Positions 28,801 to 31,132 of a stretch of DNA of 64,000 bases are shown here, piece after piece. A program made the position numbers and the translations under genes. Location of the stretch: positions 9,600,519 to 9,664,518 of the forward strand of contig NC_058504.1 of assembly GCF_020382885.2 (NCBI RefSeq), in the 5' to 3' direction. Source of the stretch: Scatophagus argus (taxonomy: Eukaryota; Chordata; Actinopteri; Scatophagidae). The stretch's first letter is position 1. Every line of letters starts with the position of its first letter. The notes below the pieces were generated by a model. That model made no database searches, was not told the origin of the DNA, and saw only the letters and a list, made by a program, of their open reading frames with translations.

Positions 28801-31132
28801 ATTCCAGCAAACCTCAAAGTGGATTGATGATGTTAGAACAGAGAGAGGAAGTGATGTCATTATCATGCTTGTTGGGAACAAAACAGACTTGGCAGATAAA
28901 AGGTACACGGTTGTGTGAGATAAGTGAAAGATTATAATGTTGATTCTCTTCTTCTGTTTACAATGGCTGATAAACAGACTGTAAATTTCAAACTCTGCTT
29001 CGATTAGAAAGCGGGTAGCATCAAGTATTATAGCTTATAAACTCTGCCAAAGCCTCGAGTCCCACTTTTCTTCCCTTCAGTGCATCTCATCCAGTTTTGA
29101 CTCTTATCATCCCTTGGAATTTTTGCATACCCCAGCCTTTTGATCAGTGATTTAAGTACTTTTATTTTTCTATTTTTATTTCTTATGATTTGATTGTATT
29201 TCTGTTGTGCCTTTTTTCTTTGTTTTATATTTTTGTTCCATTCCTGTTCTCCCCATTTGTAATTTTATTTGTGTTTTCCCCTCAACACCACACTCCACAC
29301 CACCAAAACCCCACCCCATCCTCCTTCCCGGGACCATGGCAGGCAAGTTTCTGTTGAGGCGGCAGAGAGGAAAGCTCGTGAACTCAATGTGATGTACATA
29401 GAGACCAGTGCCAAGGCTGGTTATAACGTCAAACAGGTTGGTGATCAGCTGTAGCCAGTGTAATACTGACAAATATTCCTGACAGTCATGATGTCCTTTA
29501 GGTTAGGGAGTCCAACCTGTGACGTCTGGCATGTAGAACCCTACATGTATTCATTATAAGGATCAGTGTGTGGCTGTTGAATGAAAGCGTGATCTCATTT
29601 TTCCTGCTGCTTCCTCTTTACTCAGCACAGCAGCCTCTTCCCCTTAGTCTTCCTCTCTGTCTTTGTGTGTTATAACTAAACTAACCTCTCTCTCTTTTTC
29701 CCTCTCAAAACAAGATTCTATGTTAAGCTCTCTTTGTTTCTCTCTCTGTCTCTTCCCTCTCCATTTGGCCTGTCTTCTTTGCGTGTCTTTCCATACCTGT
29801 CTGTTCGTCCATCCCCCCCCCCTCTCTGCTTTTACCTGAGCAGACAGATCACCACGGAGGAGGGCGAGCAGAGAGCTAAGGAACTGAATGTCATGTTCAT
29901 TGAAACCAGCGCAAAGACTGGCTACAATGTCAAACAGGTAGAGAATCTGCTCTCTGGAGGTAGTTGAGTAAATTCTGCCATCTAAGTCTACACTTAACTT
30001 CTTCTGTCTCCTTTTTTTTTTCCCTCTCATGGCATCATGACGTGTCTTGGCATTCTCAATATTGTGCCCCCCCCCTCCACGCACACAGGGTTTACTATGT
30101 TTCAGTACTGCTTTACTGGGTTTGTGTGGGTTTACTGCTACTGTGTTTACGCTTGCTCAAGCTTTTTTTTTTGTCTGATTCACTAAAACATCTGCGGCTT
30201 TCAAAATAATTCTGCAGATATAATGGATTTGCTCAGTGGAGCACAGCAACGTTCACTTTCACACTGTTCTCTAAACCAGCAATTAAAATCACATTTTATC
30301 TGTCACAGCTTTAACTGTTTCTGGTGTTTGCTTGTTATTCAATAAAACACATTATTCAGGAGTGACTAGTTATAACTTGGACTATCTGTCTAGACTGTAT
30401 CGTGCTAAATTTGATAGTAGGGGTGGGTGAGGTGACTCCATATACTCTGAGGCAATATGAATTTGTTCATCAGAGAGTCTTCTAAAATGTTTATACTGAG
30501 GTAACATTAATATGTGTGGATGTTTTTGATGTTGAAAGGGATAAATATTGCATTCTTTCACATCAGATGAGACAAATGGACATTTTTGGTTAATTATGTA
30601 CAAATAGTTTCTCAATTGAGTTTGCAGAAGATTTACGATATATCAACATGATGGTAAAATTACATACACCCTGATAGATTTAATCCACCTCACGCACCCA
30701 TATCTGACAGCATTTTATATTCATTCTAATAAGAGCTCTTTTAAATGTGTTCTTGGTTTTCATAGCTTTTCCGTCGCGTTGCTGCTGCATTGCCTGGGAT
30801 GGACAGCACACCAGAGAAAAGCAAAGAGGACAGTATCCTTTTCAAAGATGCTTTTAACGGAACTTGTCGTCGCACTGTTGCCCAGTTACTATTTCCATGG
30901 CTTTAATGGTAGGAAATCTGGCACACTGGTGGCAAGTGCATCTCAGTTTACGAAAAGAGAACAGAGAGAACGTTGGCTGACGAGATGGCAGCCAGATAAC
31001 ACTGCAGAAAATGTTGAAGTGAAATGTGCAAATTCACCAATGATGTTACTTAACCAAGTACTCTCAGTGATCGACATCAAACTGGAGAAACAGCCAGAGA
31101 TGACTGTCACCGAGAGCAGCTGCTCGTGCTAG
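25825..31132 (+). CDS. rab41: Rab6-family small GTPase (probable rab41)
   Basis: Golgi-associated Rab GTPase of the Rab6 group, which controls retrograde Golgi-ER and Golgi exit traffic. Common exons: 25825-25903, 27024-27082, 27420-27473, 28791-28902, 30766-30832, 31068-31132. Position four is filled by 27778-27883 or 28382-28487, and position six by 29343-29436 or 29844-29937. Any one-of-each combination gives 211 aa (human RAB6A has 208). The P-loop GEQSVGKTS, effector ATIGIDF, switch II WDTAGQE, GNKTDL and ETSAK boxes are intact, and the protein ends CSC for double geranylgeranylation. Sequence is close to RAB6A. The position between arr3 and pdzd11, and the TI pair in exon 4b, point to orthology with mammalian RAB41. 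The symbol is therefore a synteny-based inference. Confidence 0.93.
25904..27023 (+). other. Rab intron 1, rich in GCTAGC/GTTAGC words
   Basis: Between 25985 and 26610 the words GCTAGC, AGCTAAC and TTAGC recur many times, beginning at the promoter (GTCAGCTAGTTAGCTG just before the ATG). No coding exon or mobile element is visible. Confidence 0.55.
27778..27883 (+). CDS. rab41: Rab exon 4a (RAB6A'-type alternative exon)
   Basis: 106 nt, spanning switch II. It encodes Ile after the DRT of exon 3 and [12 protein letters not shown] at its end. Ile and the Ala pair are exactly the residues that set human RAB6A' apart from RAB6A. It ends DIA rather than the DIT seen in both human forms. Including both 4a and 4b, or neither, shifts the frame, so use must be exclusive. 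Confidence 0.9.
28382..28487 (+). CDS. rab41: Rab exon 4b (RAB6A-type alternative exon)
   Basis: 106 nt, the same length and phase as 4a and 498 nt downstream. It encodes Val in place of Ile, and [12 protein letters not shown]. The Thr corresponds to human RAB6A Thr87, which is needed for binding the kinesin KIF20A. The TI pair is the one I recall in human RAB41. Downstream exon 28791 completes Asn in either case. Confidence 0.92.
29343..29436 (+). CDS. rab41: Rab exon 6a (RAB6A-like alternative exon)
   Basis: 94 nt. It completes Arg after DLADK and encodes [15 protein letters not shown], then [16 protein letters not shown]. The ETSAKAGYN version matches RAB6A. The acceptor is GGCAG and the donor GTTGGT, weaker than that of 6b. 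Confidence 0.9.
29844..29937 (+). CDS. rab41: Rab exon 6b (RAB6B-like alternative exon)
   Basis: 94 nt, identical in length and phase to 6a and 407 nt downstream. It encodes [15 protein letters not shown], then [16 protein letters not shown]. The [13 protein letters not shown] and SAKTGYN wording matches RAB6B. It is fully open with intact splice sites, so it is not a dead duplicate. Confidence 0.9.

Follow-up and report, generated by a model that had tools for sequence, protein, structure and literature searches.

The window analyzed here is a stretch of 64,000 nucleotides of Scatophagus argus DNA on the contig designated C12, from a genome of 570.7 Mb in 48 contigs. It contains a Rab6-type gene on the + strand at positions 25825 to 31132, the coding set of which was found to be complete from its splice sites and translation. 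Ten exons could be delimited (1, 2, 3, 4a, 4b, 5, 6a, 6b, 7, and 8, all on the + strand), with exons 4 and 6 each present in duplicate. Exon 1 (25825 to 25903) begins at the start codon, exon 2 (27024 to 27082) contributes the remainder of the GKT loop, and exon 3 (27420 to 27473) is followed by the two versions of exon 4, a RAB6A'-type copy (4a, 27778 to 27883) and a RAB6A-type copy (4b, 28382 to 28487), which were confirmed by a tblastn search of the protein against the window. Exon 5 (28791 to 28902), bearing the NKTDL guanine-binding motif, and exon 7 (30766 to 30832) are shared and serve as the upstream and downstream partners of the exon 6 copies. Between them lie a 440-nt intron (28903 to 29342), exon 6a (29343 to 29436), a CU-rich intron of 407 nt (29437 to 29843), exon 6b (29844 to 29937), and an intron of 828 nt (29938 to 30765). 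The last coding exon, exon 8 (31068 to 31132), encodes the CSC tail and the stop codon. The last intron (30833 to 31067) and the corresponding intron of three further Rab6 genes in this genome look like minor-class (U12) introns when compared with the U12 consensus; the donor is GTATCCTTT in all four genes, and the sequence near the acceptor is CCTTAA in three of them and ACTTAAC in the window gene.

The sequence-only reading that preceded this analysis had assigned the exons to a Rab6/rab41 gene, and both parts of that name were upheld, Rab6 by protein matches and rab41 by the neighboring genes. Using phmmer with the whole product as a query (E values up to 1e-90), all nine solved sequences matched were named Rab-6A, Rab-6B, RAB6 isoform, or RAB-PROTEIN 6. 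Neighbors were sought with marker proteins, which gave an ARR3 match on the + strand at 21.5 to 23.7 kb of the window and a PDZD11 match on the − strand at 40.9 to 42.7 kb. The whole arrestin gene fits ARR3 best (summed bits of 369, compared with 233 for ARRB1 and 172 for SAG); one arrestin exon taken alone has a solved S-arrestin as its best match, ahead of cone arrestin. As ARR3, the gene, and PDZD11 are found in the order and orientation of ARR3-RAB41-PDZD11 at human Xq13, the window gene is best called rab41. KIF4A, also a part of the Xq13 arrangement, was not found in the window using its marker protein. The arr3-rab41 segment is flanked by an INPPL1-like gene (−, 3321 to 13003) and a STARD10-like gene (+, 34390 to 37205), the human counterparts of which lie near RAB6A and not RAB41.

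Exons 6a and 6b of rab41

Exons 6a and 6b had been described as two 94-nt exons of common phase that encode two versions of one segment, with the frame lost if both or neither is included. Their coordinates proved exact to the base, and the delimitation of all ten exons bore out both length and phase. The copies are adjacent, with no exon between them, and are identical at 21 of 31 amino acids and 65 of 94 nucleotides; the best of 10,000 residue shuffles reached only 10 of 31, and the 100-nt flanks are 31 to 43% alike in ungapped comparison. Ten changes lead from 6a to 6b (V139I, S140T, V141T, A143E, A144G, R146Q, K147R, R149K, Y155F, and A162T), with A162T falling directly after the SAK loop. 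The exchanged segment covers residues 137 to 168, counting the shared R, and presumably takes in the final strand with the helix that precedes it, the SAK guanine loop, and the beginning of the final helix. A tblastn search of the window with the protein found no third copy of exon 6, returning only chance matches at E values of 3.5 and 7.6.

Each of the four transcripts with one choice per pair is 636 nt long and keeps an open frame through to the CSC tail, for a product of 211 residues that ends in CSC. Inclusion of both copies or of neither results in a premature stop, which refines the earlier statement that the frame is then broken. When 6a and 6b are both included, the frame is lost and translation ends 125 nt before the last junction, where a stop would be expected to trigger mRNA decay. 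When both are skipped, the first codon of exon 8 is a stop, and decay is therefore not expected; the predicted product has 159 residues and contains neither the ETSAK loop nor the CSC tail. Both copies have GT-AG splice sites by sequence, with ...ggcag on the acceptor side and gttggt as the donor for 6a, and ...gagcag and gtagag for 6b; the six bases of the 6b donor recur in the rab6a-like gene on contig C14. The 6b acceptor is a tandem GAGCAG (29838 to 29843), use of the first AG of which would add one residue.

The designation of 6a as RAB6A-like and of 6b as RAB6B-like also held when residue identities were counted. Exon 6a of the window matches RAB6A at 26 of 31 residues and RAB6B at 20 of 31, and 6b matches them at 25 and 29 of 31, respectively, the comparison being made with the solved human Rab6A and Rab6B chains. 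By inspection, the Rab6A segment is the same as 6a of the C14 gene, and the Rab6B segment is the same as the 6b-type exon of the gene on contig C6. Five residues (V/I, S/T-or-M, R/Q, K/R, and A/T) split 6a from 6b in both of the genes that carry the pair, and the same five divide RAB6A from RAB6B. The solved RAB-PROTEIN 6, presumably the fly protein, carries the five 6a residues, which suggests that 6a is probably the older form.

Rab6 paralogues and the age of the pair

To place the pair among the Rab6 genes of this species, the genome was searched with exon 5 (E values up to 1e-5; 23 candidates scored), and four Rab6 genes were identified, namely, the window gene on C12 and one each on C14, C6, and C13. 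Two of the four carry the 6a-6b pair. On C14, the rab6a-like gene repeats the order seen in the window, with 356 nt of intron separating a 6a-type from a 6b-type exon; both exons are 94 nt, share a phase, and have GT-AG sites, and here too a premature stop results if both or neither are included. Its 6a is identical to RAB6A at 31 of 31 residues, and it has a single exon 4, of the A' type. That all close relatives lack the second copy had been named in advance as an outcome that would count against the pair; among the paralogues within this genome, the C14 gene possesses it. The genes on C6 and C13, provisionally named rab6b-like on the basis of sequence, have a single exon 6 of the 6b type and a single exon 4 of the A type. 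No remnant of 6a or 4a was detected within either gene by tblastn (E values up to 1) of about 60 kb around each, the short matches to the 6a and 4a queries (E values of 0.6 to 0.9) lying outside the gene only, and no exon 1 could be located for the C6 gene within the region examined. The full exon set belongs to rab41; rab6a has part of it, and the two rab6b-like genes are fixed for a single combination.

Two UCP2-like genes are located about 6 to 12 kb beyond the 3' end of the C14 gene, resembling UCP2-UCP3 at human 11q13. With ARR3 and PDZD11 in the window and the UCP2-like pair beside the C14 gene, the two genes are placed in different blocks. FAM168A was not found in 99 kb around the C14 gene, nor was SRPRB found around the C6 and C13 genes. 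The exon 4 pair is sorted among the four genes, with both forms in rab41, only A' in the C14 gene, and only A in the C6 and C13 genes. Mammalian RAB6A keeps both exon 4 forms.

Comparison of 6a with 6b in the window gave a pS of 0.77, which is saturated, and a pN of 0.18. Across all 15 pairs that can be formed from the six exon 6 copies of the genome, pS ranged from 0.59 to 0.96 and pN from 0.03 to 0.21 (Fisher P of at most 7e-6 in every comparison), and dS was beyond estimation in 12 pairs and between 1.15 and 2.73 in the other three. As synonymous differences are saturated and pS far exceeds pN, both copies are old, and both are held by selection at the protein level. Like copies of the C12 and C14 genes share 26 of 31 (6a with 6a) and 29 of 31 (6b with 6b) residues, compared with 21 and 23 of 31 for 6a and 6b inside one gene. 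Trees were built from the exon 6 copies together with the RAB6A, RAB6B, and fly segments. Grouping by type beat all three by-gene alternatives in the protein trees (AU P of 0.0058, 0.00035, and 0.00012), and the DNA trees pointed in the same direction (AU P of 0.080, 0.084, and 0.017), with only the double-tandem tree rejected at 5%; these AU tests used 1,000 resamplings, a number below that advised for the program.

If the window gene is rab41 and the C14 gene is rab6a, the pair would date back at least to the ancestor that the two genes share; because both occur in human, that ancestor existed before ray-finned fish and tetrapods diverged. The presence of the 6b form in RAB6B would be explained most simply by an exon duplication before the RAB6A/RAB6B split. 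Our main reading, to which we give a probability of roughly 0.8, is that 6a and 6b form a mutually exclusive tandem pair that would predate the separation of RAB6A, RAB6B, and RAB41 and would have been retained by rab6a and rab41, RAB6B having become fixed on 6b. The ancestral gene would thus have had both forms, of which RAB6B would have kept only the derived 6b and the rab6a and rab41 genes of S. argus both.

Other explanations of the arrangement were weighed against this reading. An assembly artefact or a long-dead duplicate was rejected and is practically negligible, because sequence identity between the copies is just 69% and their flanks are dissimilar, both reading frames are open and conserved at the protein level, and a second locus, on C14, repeats the arrangement. 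A quite improbable history is one in which rab6a and rab41 acquired the pair independently, or one gene received it from the other by conversion, with the pair no older than the whole-genome duplication. It gains something from the limited power of 31 codons and from the one-gene-tandem trees, which reach an AU P of 0.08 with DNA, but the five type-separating residues are common to both genes and to RAB6A/RAB6B, and the protein AU P values are at most 0.006. Recent conversion in particular is unlikely, as like copies of the C12 and C14 genes agree at only 15 and 19 of 31 third positions.

The remaining alternatives accept the pair and concern its use. It is improbable that in rab41 one copy, probably 6a, has fallen out of use, so that only 6b is translated and the pair is alive in rab6a only. 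The divergence of window 6a from RAB6A at 5 of 31 sites, where 6a of the C14 gene differs at none, would fit such a loss, as would its donor, gttggt, which has a rare T at position 3 and scores low (1.31 out of 8.71 with a donor-site matrix). By the same matrix, however, the donors of 6b (1.05), 4a, and the shared exon 5 (−0.04) are weaker still. Moreover, window 6a retains its reading frame, its guanine loop, and the splice dinucleotides at both ends, and its comparison with 6a of the C14 gene gives a pS of 0.84 and a pN of 0.09 (Fisher P of 1.8e-10), although pairwise rates allow for a recent loss. It is likewise unlikely that both exons are coding with exclusion not strict, double inclusion being common as a poison form that lowers mRNA through decay. 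The position of the stop after double inclusion, 125 nt upstream of the last junction, agrees with that possibility, and there is no physical bar to joining 6a to 6b across a 407-nt GT-AG intron; nevertheless, in two genes the protein sequence of each copy is strongly constrained by purifying selection, and a poison exon would have no need of such constraint.

Possible control of exon choice

Two mechanisms that can enforce exclusion were ruled out. Incompatibility of U2 and U12 sites does not apply, as both copies are GT-AG, and the intervening intron, at 407 nt in the window and 356 nt in the C14 gene, is not too short to be spliced. Given these sites and ample introns, we infer that exclusion must be regulated, backed by the loss of frame. 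The AG-free stretches before the six paired exons measure 54, 77, 93, 107, 116, and 186 nt, with the 186 nt preceding 6a and the 116 nt preceding 6b of the window (last 12 nt excepted). Among the remaining 25 acceptors read in the four genes, four belong to the probable minor-class intron and one to the lone exon 4a of the C14 gene; the median for the 25 is 40 nt (Mann-Whitney P of 0.0017), although eight of them exceed 54 nt, two reach 150 and 155 nt, and CU-rich tracts by themselves lengthen AG-free stretches. Long AG-free stretches accompany distant branch points in regulated exons. Distant branch points are described as enforcing exclusive exons in OGDH (PMC7969005).

The 6a-6b intron of the window contains eight copies of CTCTCT where about 1.2 are expected, a count matched in none of 200 shuffles; it came from a scan of eight motif sets over nine introns. 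The corresponding intron of the C14 gene contains none. Control by a polypyrimidine-tract protein through the CU tract was not adopted as the mechanism, as multiple motif sets had been scanned and the tract is absent from the C14 gene. A search for a conserved intron element between the two genes gave a best match at an E value of 0.008 over 21 nt, which was judged to be chance. Six intron pairs from both genes were tested for base pairing, and the three from the window gene paired no better than shuffles. In the C14 gene, the pairing energy of the 6a-6b intron with the 6b-7 intron was stronger than in 20 of 20 shuffles and that of a second intron pair stronger than in 19 of 20, neither being shared with the window gene.

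Known exon pairs and possible function

The closest known system is the mammalian RAB6A exon 4 pair (Rab6A/Rab6A'), which likewise consists of neighboring exclusive exons in the same family and is also present in the window gene. It was originally reported by Echard and colleagues. It affects another segment, however, and changes 4 of 35 residues in the window gene, compared with 10 of 31 for the exon 6 pair. In mouse, use of the exclusive Rab6 exons 4 and 5 has been reported to change from one embryonic stage to another, in opposite directions for the two (PMC2898759). The exon 6 pair also resembles the homologous exon substitutions of vertebrates, in which exclusive, related exons of great age alter a protein subtly. 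As described in surveys, every one of 60 homologous-exon events from human proteomics recurs in one or more of five distant vertebrates, and homologous exons account for 8 of 14 tissue-specific isoforms (PMC4465641, PMC9741552). These surveys begin from human events, whereas the exon 6 pair was seen in fish genes, and a term search of their main texts found no Rab entry. Human RAB6A and RAB6B have the same two forms of the segment, but in two genes, where here they lie in one. No description of an exon 6 pair in any Rab6 gene was found among the literature matches listed, although the pair may stand in automatic annotation. Ancient exclusive exon pairs (PMC4465641) and the exon 4 pair of mammalian Rab6 are both known.

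In the proposed mechanism, exon 5 would be spliced to 6a or 6b and the chosen exon then to exon 7. A single choice would give a full Rab6 protein differing in the swapped segment, double inclusion would lead through an early stop to mRNA decay, and omission of both would leave the fragment of 159 residues lacking the SAK loop and the CSC tail. Both exons are presumably expressed, in an exclusive, regulated manner with a tissue pattern, and 6b may be the more neural form. Rab6b is reported to bind less GTP than Rab6a and to be expressed preferentially in brain (PMC3735572), and on these grounds the swap could tune nucleotide binding and tissue role. In trout long reads, two genes are singled out for the top brain-specific splicing forms, and Rab6a is one of them; the figure legend refers to intron retention and exon skipping, not exclusive exons, and the accompanying text names no exon (PMC8321248). 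In a reef fish, rab6a is reported to be differentially spliced as a heatwave sets in, with no exon named in the relevant passage (PMC8933327).

A more far-reaching reading, for and against which we find the balance about even, is that the human RAB6A and RAB6B versions of this segment are relics of alternative splicing in a single pre-vertebrate gene and that 6b is neural in fish. The ancestor would have made four proteins from two exclusive pairs (4a/4b and 6a/6b). After whole-genome duplication, RAB6B would have been frozen as 4b-6b and mammalian RAB6A as 6a with both exon 4 forms, while fish rab41 could still make four forms and fish rab6a two. The division between a ubiquitous RAB6A and a brain RAB6B would then continue an older splicing switch. 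If this is true, exon choice within one fish gene would allow the difference between RAB6A and RAB6B, two well-studied Golgi regulators, to be examined with all else constant, and the history would be a clear case of genome duplication sorting alternative splicing into separate genes, with rab41 keeping the whole ancestral set.

Elsewhere in the window, at about 15292 to 15678 (+), reading frames were seen by eye to resemble a decayed Tc1/mariner-type transposase, with an SPNLNPIEH-like motif.
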